Source: an uncultured Pelagibacteraceae bacterium (GTDB taxonomy: Bacteria; Pseudomonadota; Alphaproteobacteria; Pelagibacterales; Pelagibacteraceae). Taken from it: 44,729 nucleotides of DNA. This document shows positions 4,427-12,736 of the stretch, piece by piece. The stretch is taken from the NCBI GenBank assembly GCA_902532525.1, contig CACAIK010000010.1:1-44729 (forward strand), written 5' to 3'. The notes under the pieces were generated by a model. The model was given only the letters and a program-made list of their open reading frames with translations, had not been told where the DNA came from and did not search any database. The first letter of the stretch is position 1, and the number at the start of each line of letters is the position of its first letter. Both the position numbers and the translations under genes were made by a program.

Positions 4427-4911
4427 TATTTTGATTTTTTAGATCCGTCTATAACACCTTTTAGCTGATTGTATTCTTCACAATTACATCCCTCTAGAAC
4501 ACTCAATCTTTCTTTTGCTAAATTCATCCTATTGGTTGCAACATATAATTCACCAAGATATTCGTTAATTCCTATGTGATTTGGTTCAATAGCTAAACCT
4601 TGAAGATAATATTTTTCACCATTTTCAAAATCACCAGTTTTTCTAGTTGCAAATCCAAGATAATTTAATGTGTCTGCTTTATTTGGCTTCATCTTATTTG
4701 ACTTTACTAAAAATTTAATTGCTCTTTCGTATCTTTTAATTGCTTTCTCTGTTTTACCTTTTTTTTCTAATTTTTTTGCAGCTTTAATCAATTTCACTGC
4801 CTTATCATAATGGCTTTCTGTTGATCCAGAATCACTACTAGATCCAGCAGCAAAAGATGTTCCTGCTAAAAAAATTAAAAAGAACATTGAAAAAAATATT
4901 TTCTTTATCAT
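4423..4911 (-). CDS. Exported tetratricopeptide-repeat protein
   Basis: A 162 aa protein with a signal peptide (residues 1 to about 22, ending TSFAAG), a serine-rich linker, a lysine-rich helix, and at least two TPR units (around residues 50-140, with the pattern LNYLGFATRKTGDFENGEKYYLQG). TPRs usually mediate protein-protein contacts; no catalytic motif is seen. It probably acts in the periplasm. Its start overlaps the pxpA stop in TAATG, so the two are likely co-translated. Whether it helps the TRAP receptor or the oxoprolinase is unknown. Confidence 0.8.
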   Translation of the reverse strand: MIKKIFFSMFFLIFLAGTSFAAGSSSDSGSTESHYDKAVKLIKAAKKLEKKGKTEKAIKRYERAIKFLVKSNKMKPNKADTLNYLGFATRKTGDFENGEKYYLQGLAIEPNHIGINEYLGELYVATNRMNLAKERLSVLEGCNCEEYNQLKGVIDGSKKSKY

Positions 4912-5684
4912 TATTTAAATTTCCTTAAATTAGTTAGTGTTTTTAGTTCTAAGCCATTATCTATTAAATTATTTTTTATAGATATAGCTGTAGCTAGAGA
5001 ACTTTCGTTATCACCATGTATGCACACAGAGTCTATTTCACAAGGTATTTGCTTTCCGCTGTGACAATTAATGGCTTGGTTCTGAACCATGCTTAAAACG
5101 TGACTTTTTGCTTTATCTGGATCTGTAATAAGTGCATGAGGCTCTTTTCTAGATACTAAGTTTCCATTATCTTCATAATTTCTGTCTGCAAAAATCTCAC
5201 ATGCTATCCTCATATCAAATTTCTTTGCCGCTTCTTCCATCTTCGAACCTGTAGGCACTAAATAAATTAAATCTTTATTAAAACTGCAGATTGATTTTGC
5301 AATGATCGTTGCAAGTTCAATATCTTCGCATGCCATATTATTTAATGCACCATGTGGTTTAATATGTGTAACGATTTCACCATGTTTTTCAGCTATAATT
5401 TGTAAAATTTCATACTGATCAATTAATAATTTATTTATTTCATCTGAGGATAAATTTAGTCTTTTACGCCCAAAGTTTTCTGGATCATTAAATGATGGAT
5501 GCGCACCTATGCTCACACCGTTTTTCCTACAAATTTTTACAACTTGGTTCATGCTATCTTCATCACCAGCATGATAACCACAAGCAACATTAGCTGAATT
5601 GACAATTTCCAGTAATTTTGGATCATTTTCATCTGAATGATGCTTTGATTTTTCACCTAAATCACAATTGATATTAATTTCCAT
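4911..5684 (-). CDS. pxpA: 5-oxoprolinase subunit A (LamB/YcsF family)
   Basis: PxpA acts with PxpB and PxpC in the ATP-dependent hydrolysis of 5-oxoproline (pyroglutamate) to glutamate in the cytoplasm. The 257 aa length matches the family. Signature segments are visible: INCDLGEK at the N terminus, NVACGYHAGDE near residue 33, IGAHPSFNDPENFGR near residue 57, HIKPHGALNN near residue 105, and VCIHGDNE near the C terminus. It is divergent from pxpB with only 27 bases between start codons, so the three subunits are split over two strands and their promoters must be very close or overlap coding sequence. Confidence 0.95.
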   Translation of the reverse strand: MEININCDLGEKSKHHSDENDPKLLEIVNSANVACGYHAGDEDSMNQVVKICRKNGVSIGAHPSFNDPENFGRKRLNLSSDEINKLLIDQYEILQIIAEKHGEIVTHIKPHGALNNMACEDIELATIIAKSICSFNKDLIYLVPTGSKMEEAAKKFDMRIACEIFADRNYEDNGNLVSRKEPHALITDPDKAKSHVLSMVQNQAINCHSGKQIPCEIDSVCIHGDNESSLATAISIKNNLIDNGLELKTLTNLRKFK

Positions 5685-5711
5685 ACTAATAAATCATAAG
5701 TATAACATGGT

Positions 5712-6386
5712 ATGATAAAAAATATATTAAATCTTGGTGACGCAGCTTTGTATTGCGATTTTGGAAGCGATGTAAATCAAGAAATTAATTCAAATGTTAT
5801 CAAATATTTTTACCATATAAAAAAATTAAATTTAAAAGGTATTACAAACTTAACTCCATCTTATAATAAATTAATAATTTCATATGATTTAAATATACAT
5901 TCTTTTTTATCTTTAAAAAAAAAAATTGAAAATATAGAGATTAAAGAAAACAATAAATTAGAAAAAAACTTAATCGAAATTCCTGTGTGTTGTGATAATA
6001 ATTTTGCATTAGATATTAAAAGAGTTGAAAATAAATTAAAATTAAAATCAGAAATAATCCTAGAAAAATTTTTTAGCAAAAATTACTTTTGTTATATGAC
6101 AGGATTTGTGGCTGGCATGCCTTTCCTCGGTGATCTTGAAAAGGATATGAGATTAAAAAGATTAGAAACACCAAGAGTTAAAGTTCCAAAAGGTTCAGTT
6201 GGAATAACGGAACAATTTTGCAACATATATACTTTTGAAACACCCGGGGGATGGAATATTTTGGGAAATACACCACAAAATATTTTCGACACATCTAATC
6301 AATCAAACCCTAATCTTGTTAATCCAGGTGATACAATAAAATTTTATAGAATAACTTTAGATCAATATAATGAAATCAAAAGATAG
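5712..6386 (+). CDS. pxpB: 5-oxoprolinase subunit B (KipI family)
   Basis: PxpB is the KipI-like (allophanate hydrolase subunit 1) partner of PxpC in the 5-oxoprolinase complex. The 224 aa protein has the conserved mid-to-C-terminal region: a GFVAGMPFLG segment near residue 136, LETPRVKVPKGSVGI near 156 and FETPGGWNILGNTP near 178. The N-terminal third is more diverged and rich in lysine and asparagine. It overlaps pxpC by 17 bases, indicating tight coupling. Confidence 0.93.
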   Translation: MIKNILNLGDAALYCDFGSDVNQEINSNVIKYFYHIKKLNLKGITNLTPSYNKLIISYDLNIHSFLSLKKKIENIEIKENNKLEKNLIEIPVCCDNNFALDIKRVENKLKLKSEIILEKFFSKNYFCYMTGFVAGMPFLGDLEKDMRLKRLETPRVKVPKGSVGITEQFCNIYTFETPGGWNILGNTPQNIFDTSNQSNPNLVNPGDTIKFYRITLDQYNEIKR

Positions 6387-7326
6387 AAACTACTTTAAAA
6401 TTTTAAGAGCTGGTATCAACACCACATATCAAGACTTAGGAAGAAATAATTTATACCATATTGGTATTCCTTTTAGTGGAGCGATGGATAAAAGAAATTT
6501 TCAATTGTTAAACTCACTTCTACAAAATGATTACAATTCACCTGTAATAGAATTTGCTTATCAAGGCCCGCATTTGAAGTATTTTGGAAAAGATATTTTT
6601 TTTTGTATTTCTGGAAATGTATCATTTAAAATTATAACAAAAGAGGGTGTTATTGATGGTAATTCCTACCAATGTTATTTGTTAAAAAATGGTGAGGAAG
6701 TCGATATTCATTCAACCAACAAGTCTGTTTATGGATATCTTTCGATTAATGGAACTTTTGATGTTGATTATTATTGGGAAAGCTGTTCAATAAATACACA
6801 AGCTCAAATTGGACCAAATAACGGGAATAAATTTTCTAAAGATTTAGAAATTGAAATAATTGATATTAATAATTCTTTTAATAAAAGAAAACTTGATTAC
6901 TTAGGTAGCACTATTGAAAATATAAGGGTCATTAAAGGCACAAACTATGATTATTTTTCTGAGTCTTCACAAAATAAATTCTTTAAAGAAAGTTTTAAAA
7001 TTACAAAACTTTCAGACAGGATGGGTATGAGATTAGAAGGTCCAAAAATTGAAAATATCGTTGATCCTAATATAAAATCTGAAGGTTTGGTAAAAGGTGT
7101 AATTCAAATAACATCTGCTGGAGATCCAATAATTATGTTATCAGATCATGGGACTATTGGTGGATATCCGAAGATTGCAACCGTCATATCTGCTGACTAT
7201 GATCGACTGGTACAATTAACACCAGGATCTAATATTAAATTTAAAGATGTAAGTTTAGAGGATGCTGAAACATTATATAAACTTTATCAGATGGAGACTA
7301 ATAATATTATTTCTCAAATTAAATGA
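6370..7326 (+). CDS. pxpC: 5-oxoprolinase subunit C (KipA family)
   Basis: PxpC is the KipA-like (allophanate hydrolase subunit 2, biotin-dependent carboxyltransferase-related) subunit. The 318 aa length fits. The N-terminal hallmark AGINTTYQDLGR is followed by GIPFSGAMDKRNF; the C-terminal hallmark SDRMGMRLEGP is followed by SEGLVKGVIQ and GGYPKIATVISAD. It overlaps pxpB upstream, and its TGA overlaps the ATG of the next gene (ATGA). Confidence 0.94.
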   Translation: MKSKDRNYFKILRAGINTTYQDLGRNNLYHIGIPFSGAMDKRNFQLLNSLLQNDYNSPVIEFAYQGPHLKYFGKDIFFCISGNVSFKIITKEGVIDGNSYQCYLLKNGEEVDIHSTNKSVYGYLSINGTFDVDYYWESCSINTQAQIGPNNGNKFSKDLEIEIIDINNSFNKRKLDYLGSTIENIRVIKGTNYDYFSESSQNKFFKESFKITKLSDRMGMRLEGPKIENIVDPNIKSEGLVKGVIQITSAGDPIIMLSDHGTIGGYPKIATVISADYDRLVQLTPGSNIKFKDVSLEDAETLYKLYQMETNNIISQIK

Positions 7327-8195
7327 ATTTAATTACAAAATTACCAGGACCGCTTTTGATTTTTTTTGGTGCTTTCAGTTTAAGTTTTGGAGGGTTGATA
7401 GTCAAATCTTTCGAAGGTTCCACTCTATGGCAGATTCTATTTTGGAGATCAGTTTTTTTTATAATTGTAGTTCTGATCTTTCTAATTATTAGTTATAAGC
7501 AAAATTTTATTTCGGCATTTTATAAATCTGGAATCCCTGGTCTTATTGGAGGCATTATACTTGCCTGTGGCTTTAGTGGTTATGTTTTTGCGATGTATAA
7601 TACTACTGTAGCAAATACTAATTTTATAATTCAAACCCAAACATTATTTTTAGCAATCTTTGGATATATATTTTTAAAAGAAAAAATAAACTTAATAACA
7701 TTAACTTCTATAGTTTTAGCAATTTCAGGAATAATTTTGATGGTTGGAAGCTCATTAACAATTGGACAAATGAGTGGAAATATTGCTGCTTTTATTATGC
7801 CAATATCATTTGCAACATTAATTTTAATAGTTAGAAAATTTCCAAGTGTTGATATGGTTCCATTACAATTTATTGCAGGTGTTATTGCTTTGATCATTGG
7901 ATATTTTATGTCTAAAACGATCTTTATATCTTTAAATGACATTTTTTTGGGATTTTTAGCTGGTTTTTTCCAACTTGGTTTTGGTTTTATTTTTATTACA
8001 ATCGGTGCAAGATCTACACCTTCAGCCTTAGTTGGAATCATAATGTTATCAGAGGCAGTTTTAGGACCTTTTTGGGCCTGGATGTTTATAAATGAAAATC
8101 CTCCAACCACCGTTTTAATTGGTGGTTTAATAGTGATATTTGCAGTTTTAATACAATTTCTTTCACTTATGAAAAAAAAAAGTGCAACAAATTAG
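7323..8195 (+). CDS. EamA/DMT-superfamily permease
   Basis: A 290 aa inner-membrane transporter of the drug/metabolite family with ten predicted transmembrane helices arranged as two EamA repeats (about residues 12-140 and 150-285). The typical end-of-repeat motif FLKEKINLITLTSIVL is visible, as is the second-half GFIFITIGARSTPSALVGIIML. ATGA overlap with pxpC makes it the last gene of the pxpBC operon, so it may move an amino acid or related compound such as glutamate or oxoproline. It is one of three EamA permeases in the window. Confidence 0.9.
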   Translation: MNLITKLPGPLLIFFGAFSLSFGGLIVKSFEGSTLWQILFWRSVFFIIVVLIFLIISYKQNFISAFYKSGIPGLIGGIILACGFSGYVFAMYNTTVANTNFIIQTQTLFLAIFGYIFLKEKINLITLTSIVLAISGIILMVGSSLTIGQMSGNIAAFIMPISFATLILIVRKFPSVDMVPLQFIAGVIALIIGYFMSKTIFISLNDIFLGFLAGFFQLGFGFIFITIGARSTPSALVGIIMLSEAVLGPFWAWMFINENPPTTVLIGGLIVIFAVLIQFLSLMKKKSATN

Positions 8196-8220
8196 AGCTA
8201 TAAATTTATATTAGTTATGT

Positions 8221-8226
8221 TATAAG
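8221..8226 (+). promoter_or_regulatory. Candidate -10 element for the gcvTHP transcript
   Basis: TATAAG lies about seven bases before the first base of the aptamer-1 P1 stem (8233), which would place the transcript start at the riboswitch edge. No good -35 is seen at 17-base spacing (CTATAA there), so this is only a candidate. Confidence 0.35.
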
Positions 8227-8232
8227 AAATTA

Positions 8233-8368
8233 TACGGGAGAGACTACTTTTGTAGCGCCGAAGGAGCAACCACCCCGGAAACTCTCAGGCAAATGGACCG
8301 TACATATTAACTCTGGAAAGAGAATTATTCTCGCCGAAGGAGCAAATCTCTCAGGCAAAAAGACAGAG
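8233..8368 (+). promoter_or_regulatory. Tandem (two-aptamer) glycine riboswitch
   Basis: Two glycine aptamers in series precede gcvT. The core GCCGAAGGAGCAA occurs at 8257-8269 and again at 8333-8345, 76 bases apart. CTCTCAGGCAAA occurs at 8282-8293 and 8348-8359. Aptamer 1 is closed by P1 TACGG (8233-8237) with CCGTA (8298-8302). Aptamer 2 is closed by CTCTG (8311-8315) with CAGAG (8364-8368) and holds a hairpin GAGAATTATTCTC. Glycine riboswitches typically activate glycine cleavage genes when glycine is plentiful. They are also known in SAR11 for gcvT and malate synthase. Confidence 0.97.
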
Positions 8369-8389
8369 GGGGCATAAAGAGTTAATATG
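8303..8389 (+). promoter_or_regulatory. Putative expression platform: anti-start helix overlapping aptamer 2 P1
   Basis: CATATTAACTCT at 8303-8314 is a perfect 12-base reverse complement of AGAGTTAATATG at 8378-8389. The latter contains the purine-rich AAAGAG region and the entire gcvT ATG. Bases 8311-8314 are shared with the 5' arm of aptamer 2 P1, so the helices are mutually exclusive. The inference is that without glycine the start is sequestered, and with glycine P1 forms and frees it. No U-rich intrinsic terminator is present, so control is probably translational. Confidence 0.75.
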
Positions 8390-9493
8390 ACTATAAAAAA
8401 AACATCGTTAAATAATCTCCACATTAAGTATGGCGCAAAGCTCGTAGAGTTTGCTGGATATCAAATGCCCATCCAATATAAAGATGGGATTATACAAGAG
8501 CATAAATACACACGTTCACACTCTGGTATTTTTGATGTTTCTCATATGGGTCAATTATTTATATCGGGTGGTGATGATCTTACAAATGATCTTGAGAAGA
8601 TTTTTCCTGCAGATTTGAAAAAATTGAAAACTAATCAAAGTAAATATTCATTTTTAATGAATAACAAAGGAGGAATTCAGGACGATCTGATAATTACCAA
8701 AACATCTGATGGATTTTTAATTATCTTGAATGCTGCATGTAAGTATAATGATTATGAAGTAATAAAATCTAAACTTAATAATCAATATAAATTAAATCTT
8801 GACGAGTCATTGTCACTAATTGCATTACAGGGCCCCGAAGCAAAAAATGTTTTAAATAAAGTTATAACTGGTTGTGACAGTCTAAAATTTATGAACGGAA
8901 ACAACTATGTCTATAAAAATGAAAAAGTATACATAACTAGATCAGGATATACTGGTGAGGATGGATTTGAAATTTCTATAAAACATAGTGATGCTGAAAC
9001 TTTTGTAGAAAGTTTGATAGAAAATGGATCTAAATTGATTGGTTTAGGAGCAAGAGATACATTAAGAATGGAAGCCGGACTCTGCTTGTATGGAAATGAT
9101 TTAGACAACGATACAAGTCCTATCGAAGCTAATCTAAAATGGGCAATACCTAAGAGCAGAATTGAGACTGAATTTGTTGGATCAGAAGTTTTAAAAAACC
9201 AATTTCAAAGCGGAGTAAAAAAATTAAGAGTTGGTATTAAACCAGACAGCAAAGTAATTGCTAGAGGAAATACCAAAATATACAATGATAAAAATCAAGA
9301 AATTGGGAAAGTAACAAGTGGCACATTTGGACCAAGCGTTGAACATCCAATAGCAATGGGATATGTCGATAATAGTTATTCAACTGTAAATACAAAAATA
9401 TTTCTTGAAGTTAGAGGAAAAAAAATTCCCGCAAATATTTGTAACTTACCGTTTTATAAAAAAAATTACGTAAAAGGGGAAATTAATGTCTGA
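8387..9493 (+). CDS. gcvT: Glycine cleavage system T protein (aminomethyltransferase)
   Basis: GcvT transfers the methylene unit from the aminomethyl-lipoyl group of GcvH to tetrahydrofolate, giving 5,10-methylene-THF and ammonia. The protein is 368 aa, the normal length. Motifs include [10 protein letters not shown] near the N terminus, FDVSHMGQ near residue 49, [13 protein letters not shown] near residue 185 and [21 protein letters not shown] near 219-239. The start follows directly from the riboswitch. It overlaps gcvH by eight bases in a gcvT-gcvH-gcvP operon. Confidence 0.97.
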
Positions 9494-9866
9494 AGTTAAA
9501 TATTCAAAAGAACATGAGTGGATTAAACTAGATGGAGAAGAAGCTACAATTGGAATAACCAAGCATGCAACAGAAATGCTTGGGGACATAGTATTTGCTG
9601 AACTCCCAGAGAAAGGCTCAAATGTCGATAAAGATGGAACTGCTGGAGTGGTTGAGTCAACGAAAGCTGCTAGTGATGTTTACACTCCTGTTAGTGGAGA
9701 AGTTATAGATACAAATCAAATGATAGTTGATGATCCATCAAAAATAAATGAAGACCCAGAAGAGTCTGCATGGTTTTTTAAACTTAAAATAAAAGACAAA
9801 TCTGAAATCGATAGTCTTATGAGTAAAGAAGAATATGAAAAATTTGCAAAGGAGACATCAGCATAA
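9486..9866 (+). CDS. gcvH: Glycine cleavage system H protein
   Basis: GcvH is the lipoylated shuttle protein of the glycine cleavage complex. The 126 aa sequence has the expected [10 protein letters not shown] start and the lipoylation site Lys60 in [21 protein letters not shown] precedes it, as in the family. It overlaps gcvT by eight bases, and its stop overlaps the gcvP start as TAATG; an AAGGAG ribosome-binding site for gcvP lies within its 3' end. Confidence 0.97.
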
Positions 9867-12736
9867 TGTTACCAAATTCAGAAAAAGATTTTATAAAAAG
9901 ACACATTGGACCTTCTAAAGAAGACCAATTAAAAATGTTAAAAGAATTAAATTATAAGACAATAGATGATTTAATGAATAACACTGTTCCAGAAAAAATA
10001 ATGTTTAAAGGTGAGCTTAATATCGGAGAGTCTAATTCAGAATATGAGGCATTAAGAAAATTAAGAGCAATTTCAAAAAAAAATCATGTTTACTCAAATT
10101 TTATTGGAATGGGTTATTATGGAACTTATACGCCATATGTAATTTTAAGAAATATTTTAGAAAATCCAGGTTGGTATACATCATATACACCTTATCAGCC
10201 TGAAGTAGCTCAAGGAAGACTTGAGATGTTGCTAAACTTTCAACAAATGATTGTTGATTTTACTGGAATGGATATCGCTAATGCTTCTTTATTGGATGAA
10301 GGTACAGCAGCAGCAGAAGCCATGGGTCTTAGTCATAGATTAAATAAAAAAGATAGTAATTTAGTTTTTGTATCTGAGGATTGCCATCCTCAAACAATAA
10401 ATGTAATTCAAACTAGAGCCGAACCAATGGGATTAAAAGTTTTAGTTGGAAAAGAAGATGAAGTTTTAGACCAATTAAAAGAAGATCTAGTTTGTGGAAT
10501 TTTACAATATCCTGGAACTTTAGGAGATATTAAAGACCCAAGTGAAGCAATTAGCAAAATTCACAAAAAAAACGGTAAGGCTGTATTAGCTTGTGATTTA
10601 TTAGCTTTAGCAAAATTAAAAACACCAAGAGAACTTGGTGCTGATATAGCAGTAGGAAGCTCTCAGCGATTTGGAATACCGATGGGGTATGGAGGTCCAC
10701 ATGCAGCATTTTTTGCAACTAAAGACGAGTATAAGAGATCGATGCCTGGTAGAATTGTTGGTGTGTCAGTTGATAGACATGGTAACAAGGCATACAGATT
10801 ATCTTTACAAACTAGAGAGCAACACATTAGAAGAGATAAGGCGACAAGCAATATTTGTACTGCACAAGCTTTATTAGCAATTGTTTCAGCAGCATATGCT
10901 ATTTATCATGGTCCAGATGGAATTAAAAATATTTCTGAAAGAGTTTCTCAATTAGCAAAAAGTTTTGCTGATAAAATAAAACAGTCAGGTTATGAAATTT
11001 ATTCTGATTATTTTTTTGATACTGTTACAATTATTACCAAAGAAAAGACTGATCAAATTTATAAAAATGCTCTAAATCAGAAAGTTAATATACGAAAAGT
11101 AAATTCTGAAATGCTTGCTGTCTCTTTTGATGAAAGAAAAAACGTTTATAGAGTAAATCAATTATTAAAAATTTTTAATGCTGCAGAATCAATAAAAAAA
11201 GAGGATCCTTCAGTTAAATTACCCAATTTACCAAAAAATTTATTAAGAACTTCAAAATATTTAGAGCATCCAATTTTTAACTTATATCATTCAGAAACTG
11301 AAATGCTTAGATATCTTAAAAAGCTAGAGGATAAGGATATAGCATTGAATAGAACTATGATAGCACTTGGTTCGTGCACAATGAAGTTAAATGCTGCTGC
11401 TGAAATGATCCCGATTTCTTGGAAAGAATTTGCAGAACCTCATCCTTTTGTTCCAGTTGAACAAATGGAAGGTTTTAGAGATTTGTTTACTGATTTAAAA
11501 AATTGGTTGAGATCTATAACAGGTTTTTCCGGTGTTTCTCTACAACCTAATGCAGGCGCCCAAGGAGAATATGCAGGTCTAATGGTTATAAGAAAGTACC
11601 ACTTAGATAGAGATGATGCTCATCGTAATATATGTTTAATCCCAAGTTCGGCACATGGTACAAATCCAGCAAGCGCACAAATGGTTGGAATGAAAGTCGT
11701 TGTTGTTAATTGTGATAAAGAGGGAAATGTAGATTTCGATGATTTAAAGAAAAAAGTAGAGCAACATTCAGAAAATCTTGCAGCTTTAATGGTAACTTAC
11801 CCATCTACCCATGGAGTATTTGAGGAAAAAATAACTGATATTTGTGAGTTAGTTCATAAACATGGTGGACAGGTCTATATGGATGGAGCAAATTTAAATG
11901 CCCTTGTTGGAGTTGCAAAGCCTGGAAATTTTGGTCCAGACGTTTGTCATATTAATCTGCATAAAACATTTTGTATTCCTCACGGTGGTGGTGGACCTGG
12001 AATGGGACCTATAGCTTGTAAAAAACATTTACAAGTTTATCTGCCTAATCATCCAGTAATAAAAGATTGCGGACCAACAAGTGGAATTGGAGCAGTATCA
12101 GCAGCTCCTTGGGGTAGTTCAAGTATTCTATCAATCTCTTGGATGTATATTAAAATGATGGGATCAGAAGGATTAAAGCTTGCTACTCAAGTTGCAATTT
12201 TAAACGCAAATTATATTGCTCATAGACTTAAAGATCACTTTCCTATTTTGTACAAAGGTGCAAATGGCAATGTTGCACACGAGTGCATAATTGATATTAG
12301 AAATATTAAATCTGAAACAGGGGTAACTGAAGAAGATATTGCTAAAAGAATGATAGATTTTGGATTTCACGCACCAACTATGTCATGGCCTGTAGCTGGC
12401 ACTATGATGATAGAGCCAACTGAAAGCGAAGGTTTATCAGAAATAGACAGATTTTGTGACACTTTAATTAAGATTAAACAAGAAATTGAAAAAATTAAAT
12501 CAGGTGAATTTGATAAAATCGATAATCCAATTAAAAACGCTCCTCACACTGATACTGAATTATCATCAGATGTATGGGAACATAAATATTCAAGACAAGA
12601 AGCAGCATATCCTGCAAGTTTTCTAAAACAAAATAAATTTTGGCCTCCAGTTGCCCGGGTAGACAATGTTTATGGAGATAAAAATATATTCTGCACATGC
12701 CCAAGCATGGATGAGTTTAAAGAAGACGCAGCATAG
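9866..12736 (+). CDS. gcvP: Glycine dehydrogenase (decarboxylating), P protein
   Basis: GcvP is the PLP-dependent enzyme that decarboxylates glycine and loads the aminomethyl group on GcvH. At 956 aa it is the single-chain form rather than the split GcvPA/GcvPB form. The C-terminal half carries the PLP lysine in NLHKTFCIPHGGGGPGMGP. The N-terminal half begins FIKRHIGPS and contains NASLLDEGTAAAEAM. It is the last clear member of the glycine-controlled operon; the next gene begins five bases later and may be read on the same transcript, since I see no terminator. Confidence 0.98.
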   Translation: MLPNSEKDFIKRHIGPSKEDQLKMLKELNYKTIDDLMNNTVPEKIMFKGELNIGESNSEYEALRKLRAISKKNHVYSNFIGMGYYGTYTPYVILRNILENPGWYTSYTPYQPEVAQGRLEMLLNFQQMIVDFTGMDIANASLLDEGTAAAEAMGLSHRLNKKDSNLVFVSEDCHPQTINVIQTRAEPMGLKVLVGKEDEVLDQLKEDLVCGILQYPGTLGDIKDPSEAISKIHKKNGKAVLACDLLALAKLKTPRELGADIAVGSSQRFGIPMGYGGPHAAFFATKDEYKRSMPGRIVGVSVDRHGNKAYRLSLQTREQHIRRDKATSNICTAQALLAIVSAAYAIYHGPDGIKNISERVSQLAKSFADKIKQSGYEIYSDYFFDTVTIITKEKTDQIYKNALNQKVNIRKVNSEMLAVSFDERKNVYRVNQLLKIFNAAESIKKEDPSVKLPNLPKNLLRTSKYLEHPIFNLYHSETEMLRYLKKLEDKDIALNRTMIALGSCTMKLNAAAEMIPISWKEFAEPHPFVPVEQMEGFRDLFTDLKNWLRSITGFSGVSLQPNAGAQGEYAGLMVIRKYHLDRDDAHRNICLIPSSAHGTNPASAQMVGMKVVVVNCDKEGNVDFDDLKKKVEQHSENLAALMVTYPSTHGVFEEKITDICELVHKHGGQVYMDGANLNALVGVAKPGNFGPDVCHINLHKTFCIPHGGGGPGMGPIACKKHLQVYLPNHPVIKDCGPTSGIGAVSAAPWGSSSILSISWMYIKMMGSEGLKLATQVAILNANYIAHRLKDHFPILYKGANGNVAHECIIDIRNIKSETGVTEEDIAKRMIDFGFHAPTMSWPVAGTMMIEPTESEGLSEIDRFCDTLIKIKQEIEKIKSGEFDKIDNPIKNAPHTDTELSSDVWEHKYSRQEAAYPASFLKQNKFWPPVARVDNVYGDKNIFCTCPSMDEFKEDAA

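Follow-up and report, generated by a model that had tools for sequence, protein, structure and literature searches.

The inter-aptamer linker as the probable masking strand of a compact translational ON switch in the SAR11 gcvT glycine riboswitch

Few cells in the ocean are as abundant as SAR11 bacteria. The stretch of DNA analysed here (the window: all 44,729 nucleotides of contig CACAIK010000010.1, assembly GCA_902532525.1, from an uncultured Pelagibacteraceae bacterium of the order Pelagibacterales) carries a tandem glycine riboswitch upstream of gcvT. We consider it very likely that this RNA is a compact translational ON platform, in which the linker between the two aptamers, together with the 5′ arm of the aptamer-2 P1 stem (P1b), masks the gcvT start until glycine binds. 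Without glycine, bases 8303-8314 would pair with the gcvT initiation site at 8378-8389 and exclude the ribosome from the gcvTHP mRNA. Glycine would stabilise P1b (8311-8315 with 8364-8368) along with the tandem fold, reclaiming the CTCT that both helices use. Formation of P1b would uncover the Shine-Dalgarno (SD)-like AGAG and leave a helix of at most 8 pairs, 7 of them A-U, which would presumably be opened by the tertiary fold or by the 30S subunit. That the SAR11 gcvT switch depends on glycine, and that glycine turns it on, we infer, the polarity from gene context and the literature.

The helix itself is read directly from the DNA. Bases 8303-8314 (CATATTAACTCT), made up of the 8-base linker followed by the first four bases of the P1b 5′ arm, are the exact reverse complement of 8378-8389 (AGAGTTAATATG). 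A preliminary description of this locus had proposed the complement and had placed the purine-rich ribosome-binding region and the whole ATG inside it, and both points are borne out, with AGAG at 8378-8381 and ATG at 8387-8389. It was also right that CTCT (8311-8314) is needed by both helices in the window; in 33 of 48 aligned relatives the outer C-G pair of P1b is missing, and the bases shared with the masking helix are there UCU. A-U pairs make up 9 of the 12, as a coincidence in an A+T-rich leader might produce, but when the leader was shuffled 20,000 times with dinucleotides preserved, just 2 shuffles held a 12-base complement to the start zone. Among the 47 open reading frames of at least 100 amino acids (aa) examined in the window, gcvT alone has one, the next best complement being 10 bases long. 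Chance was rejected by the shuffles and already refuted by the conservation and compensatory changes described below, and we give it practically no credence.

The wider comparison drew on 127 distinct tandem switches parsed from the Pelagibacterales (104 gcvT-type and 23 glcB-type), to which ten switches with variant linkers were added after reading, for a final set of 110 gcvT-type and 27 glcB-type. At least 10 contiguous pairs (G-U allowed) are present in all 104 gcvT-type switches parsed first and in 107 of the final 110; the three exceptions, all from genus g7 (L071, L074 and L153), have 6, 7 and 8. A sample chosen by GcvT protein, consisting of the best 80 of 228 matches and hence of close relatives, all of them Pelagibacteraceae like the GcvT relatives with 99% identity, gave a perfect run of 9-12 bases in 73 of the 74 loci parsed by script. 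The remaining parsed locus has a run of 6, interrupted by G-U, and the 6 unparsed loci have runs of 11-12 when read.

To count pairs we used a sequence-only MAFFT alignment (A1) of 48 gcvT leaders, the window standing for L008, whose rows were picked by hand from 85 deduplicated leaders to span the variants, a choice that preceded all counting of pairs. Standard pairs occupy 95.7% of the cells of the 12-pair helix, against 89.6 ± 0.7 when shuffled and 35-47% when the arms are slid, even with two divergent rows (L147 and L151) misregistered and losing pairs. The helix has a covariation score of 0.230, the shuffles one of 0.120 ± 0.009, and none of the 500 shuffles matches the helix; 4 pairs vary on both sides, which 10 of 500 shuffles attain. 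Given A1 and no prompting, RNAalifold predicts 10 of the 12 pairs and puts the last two 5′ bases into a short alternative; TCTG/CAGA of P1b is invariant in all 48 rows. Energies tell the same story: over the 110 gcvT leaders, native duplexes have a mean of -14.5 kcal/mol and those with shuffled start zones one of -4.3; of 11,000 such shuffles, 38 pair as well as the native start zone. Linkers matched with start zones of other genera pair more weakly than with their own in 6 of 7 genus rows; only g10, a single sequence, departs from this, at -14.3 kcal/mol natively and -14.5 with the g8 start zone.

The helix has thus been kept by evolution through matched changes on both arms, and these can be followed lineage by lineage. 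Alignment columns 16 and 104 form an A-U pair that is reversed between genera, reading TATTAA/TTAATA in g1 and TAATAA/TTATTA in g8, g9 and g10, apart from a few departures. L002-L004 have A-U in place of the outer C-G, and their ATG has moved 5 bases downstream; in the g9 leaders L031, L036 and L045 the linker TTGTAATAA stands opposite TTATTACAA, with the ATG 3′ of the helix. The two arms are AATAAACTCT/AGAGTTTATT in genus g5, ATTATATAACTCT/GGAGTTATATAAT in genus g6 and ATTAAAACTCT/AGAGTTTTAAT in the g7 leader L068. On a quick-method tree of 51 GcvT proteins (those of the 110 gcvT leaders with at least 330 GcvT residues), the paired changes are spread over separate lineages, with a minimum of 3 changes for the linker base of column 16 and of 17 for the linker 5-mer. 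The compensatory changes that the preliminary description had proposed to look for in SAR11 homologues are therefore present.

What the helix covers has shifted among lineages. The start codon lies entirely 3′ of it in L002-L004, L031, L036, L038, L045, g5 and g6, and the helix is kept even there, so that the start codon does not account for the pairing. The spacer and the SD-like end (AGAG, AGGG or GGAG, in a few cases AAG/AGTT) are always masked. The earlier picture of the linker as an anti-start strand stands as far as pairing and conservation go, but in several lineages its target is the SD-like end and spacer rather than the codon. In one g1 gcvT leader (L091), the ATG within the helix is followed immediately by a stop (ATGTAA) and the frame begins 6 bases later with the next ATG; the helix is kept.

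This design is shared by the gcvT switches of the family in general; it is weaker in g7 and interrupted in the g1 glcB switches. An interrupted helix (CATA-A-CACT with AGTG-C-TATG or similar) is retained by 23 of 24 g1 glcB switches at -9.4 kcal/mol or better, against a shuffle mean of -4.8. Several observations weigh against too broad a claim. Helices of genus g7 reach only -4.3 to -11.1 kcal/mol, and the 95.7% of paired cells in A1 is somewhat favourable because that alignment omits the ten later-added variants and has no g7 row; its covariation cells, moreover, count sequences and not evolutionary events. The g1 glcB switch L019 gives no helix signal (-5.5 kcal/mol, with 30 of 100 shuffles equally good). 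The helix is absent from all three g8 glcB switches (L063, L069 and L077), which lie upstream of a malate-synthase-like gene and are likely to use a different platform.

Folding of 8231-8420 was modelled in ViennaRNA, which includes neither ligand nor tertiary contacts. A start region left unpaired without glycine, which the preliminary description had named as counter-evidence, is not what the model predicts: in the ligand-free fold all 12 pairs form with probability 0.92-1.0, the 0.92 belonging to the inner end, 8314-8378. The ensemble lies at -45.3 kcal/mol in the masked state and at -40.6 with P1b forced. P1b thus costs about 4.7 kcal/mol, which glycine and tertiary contacts would have to meet. 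Starting from the free ensemble, 8378-8389 can be opened for 7.5 kcal/mol; with P1b in place the cost is 2.8. Constrained folding covered 136 of the 137 switches, all but L153, whose P1b was incompatible with the constraint.

The same model also supplies the points that speak against full release of the start. P1b displaces just 4 of the 12 pairs, and when it is forced, 8378-8379 become exposed (0.93 and 0.89) and 8380-8389 only partly so, most of UUAAUAUG remaining paired to the linker or in a local hairpin. For genus g1, forcing P1b lifts the mean unpaired probability of the site from 0.20 to no more than 0.43, and in the window full opening of the site still requires its further 2.8 kcal/mol beyond a residual linker helix of about 0.6. 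Freeing the start codon, as the preliminary description proposed for P1 formation, would therefore need melting by the ribosome or exclusion of the linker by tertiary structure. Masking of the initiation site without ligand is supported by the predicted fold and by covariation; its exposure with P1b formed is only partial in the model. When P1b is formed and the linker is free, a small hairpin, AGUUA/UGACU (8380-8392), covers the ATG in the model; in most aligned relatives the bases after the ATG differ from those of this hairpin.

Such figures could also describe a static brake, in which the linker-start pairing persists with glycine and the switch tunes only the SD-like AGAG or acts at another level (mRNA stability, Rho), since 8 linker pairs can still form beside P1b. 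A mere brake, however, has no need of the four pairs shared with P1b, and these are conserved almost as well as the other eight (181 of 192 against 370 of 384 cells of A1); the residual helix is, besides, too slight in energy to fit it well. We regard this alternative as unlikely. An OFF switch, in which the ligand favours the masked state, is much less probable again. The gcvT product degrades glycine; the masked helix and P1b use common bases, so a ligand-stabilised P1b must weaken the masked helix; and the title of a 2009 paper by Tripp et al. reportedly calls the SAR11 switch glycine-activated and links it to glycine-serine auxotrophy. Glycine riboswitches of both polarities are known (PMC12060979), which makes an OFF switch conceivable here, if very improbable.

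Most tandem glycine riboswitches (>90%) have a kink-turn, P0, between leader and linker, a usual though not a defining feature, and its sequence requirement is a GA in the linker. Were the SAR11 linker conserved for this aspect of aptamer folding, its complementarity to the start could be a by-product of A+T richness. But GA is found in 1 of 106 SAR11 linkers as against 23 of 24 linkers of other alphaproteobacteria (106 of 110 SAR11 gcvT linkers and 24 of 29 outgroup linkers could be parsed for this count), so the linker seems to have been repurposed, and linker and start zone co-vary between genera. In addition, SAR11 metatranscriptome reads, which map at glcB and are connected to gcvT through assembly, begin at the first nucleotide of P1 or at most 15 nt upstream (PMC5069720), so that little leader is left. 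By these sequence proxies, GA count and read starts, SAR11 appears to lack the P0 kink-turn, and we reject it as the cause of linker conservation, with very little probability left to it. TTGAC, the core of a -35 box, lies at most 46 bases upstream of the aptamer sequence GGGAGA in 54 of 106 leaders; the window's own leader has no TTGAC, and a simple promoter scan gave no site 5′ of its aptamer.

The leader and kink-turn appear, then, to have been lost in SAR11 and the linker re-used. A fuller account, which we offer tentatively and rate at slightly below an even chance, would make the freed linker the moving strand of the switch. Dimerisation with glycine would take CTCT into P1b and need the linker single-stranded, so that all 12 pairs would open at once, with switch and platform together occupying about 190 nt.

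Table 1. Coordinates of the riboswitch parts and of the gcv genes in the window.
Feature	Position	Strand	Basis or remark
Glycine aptamer 1 (RF00504)	8225..8310	+	cmscan 69.6 bits, gathering score 32
P1a of aptamer 1	8233-8237 with 8298-8302	+	pairs read from sequence
Inter-aptamer linker CATATTAA	8303..8310	+	first 8 bases of the putative anti-initiation strand; no GA dinucleotide
5′ arm of aptamer-2 P1 (P1b), CTCTG	8311..8315	+	CTCT 8311-8314 common to P1b and the anti-initiation helix
Glycine aptamer 2 (RF00504)	8303..8376	+	cmscan 53.5 bits, gathering score 32
3′ arm of aptamer-2 P1, CAGAG	8364..8368	+	pairs with 8311-8315; CAGA invariant in 48/48 aligned relatives
Predicted masked initiation site AGAGTTAATATG	8378..8389	+	SD-like AGAG 8378-8381, spacer, ATG 8387-8389; pairs with 8303-8314
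gcvT, aminomethyltransferase of the glycine cleavage system	8387..9493	+	NCBIfam NF010093 and TIGR00528 over cut-off; Pfam GCV_T
gcvH	9486..9866	+	TIGR00527 over cut-off; 8-base overlap with gcvT
gcvP	9866..12736	+	TIGR00461 over cut-off; first base is the last base of gcvH

Both aptamers exceed the gathering score of their family (Table 1), although the RF00504 scan of the whole window listed aptamer 1 alone and aptamer 2 came from a separate scan. The 191-base leader lies between an EamA-type transporter gene, which ends at 8195, and the ATG of gcvT, whose product has 368 aa. The riboswitch thus precedes a glycine-metabolism operon in the order gcvT-gcvH-gcvP. The genes overlap by 8 bases (9486-9493) and by 1 base (9866), which suggests that translational coupling could extend the switch to the whole operon. 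Terminator-based control (transcription attenuation) was rejected, as 8150-8450 holds 0 terminator-like sites. Upstream of the transporter gene, 4911-7326 encodes 5-oxoprolinase-subunit-like proteins PxpA (-), PxpB (+) and PxpC (+); the PxpA-like gene exceeds its subfamily cut-off, PxpB and the PxpC equivalog model stay below theirs, and the third gene meets a broader 5-oxoprolinase/urea amidolyase model.

With stricter filters, which lose weak matches, RF00504 was present in 200 of the 297 genomes of the order search, and in 24 of 61 genomes comprising the window's own and 60 relatives, all 24 belonging to the window's genus. In the same set of 61, it was found in 0 of the 24 genomes of family f2 of the order, so the riboswitch may be missing from this sister family. 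The window's assembly (G000, 86% complete) has a single RF00504 site; many relatives also carry a glcB switch. In genome G066 of the order the sites are at 649787-649876 and 498528-498615, coordinates that fall within the gcvT and glcB intergenic regions given for Candidatus Pelagibacter ubique HTCC1062 in PMC2704228; G066 very probably represents this strain, which makes Pelagibacter the probable genus of the window.

Other alphaproteobacteria likewise place tandem aptamers before gcvT, with a linker that nearly always contains GA. The outgroup consisted of 29 loci, the best-scoring of 180 matching genomes, of which 27 could be parsed for pairing. In 26 of these the start codon follows P1b by 49-102 nt, and in one by 225, possibly through a misassigned start (the start positions given to L187, L191 and L196 in the outgroup may be wrong). 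The 27 outgroup leaders show no enrichment of linker-start pairing, with a mean of -10.1 native against -10.5 shuffled, and none of them ranks in the best 5 of 100 shuffles; a general alphaproteobacterial platform is rejected for this sample.

The SAR11 gcvT and glcB switches of Tripp et al. 2009 are of the same RNA family, genes and clade as those described here. We found no earlier description of the linker-start helix in the open-licence literature, a scope that leaves out Tripp et al. 2009 and most subscription papers. The gcvT switch of Bacillus subtilis likewise joins two aptamers to one platform that is ON with glycine, but its platform is a transcription terminator, and the leader-linker kink-turn, apparently absent in SAR11, is required there; the same source, from 2017, states that the Vibrio cholerae platform lacked a detailed characterisation (PMC5666159). 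The closest likeness is to Neisseria gonorrhoeae gcvT, where a translational tandem glycine ON switch with a masked ribosome-binding site was demonstrated by mutation, nucleotides of aptamer 2 doing the masking without glycine (PMC13104608). The masking strand proposed there belongs to the P3a, P3 and P1 stem in aptamer 2, and 62 nt separate P1 from the start codon; in SAR11 it would be the linker and the 5′ arm of aptamer-2 P1, and 18 nt separate P1b from the start codon in the window. Translational ON control of gcvT by glycine is therefore already known; what differs in SAR11 is the proposed use of the linker as masking strand. The SAR11 gcvT riboswitch gains from this a concrete mechanism backed by covariation. 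The comparison suggests that a linker which elsewhere helps to join two aptamers can become the switching strand, and that genome streamlining may here have reshaped an RNA machine.
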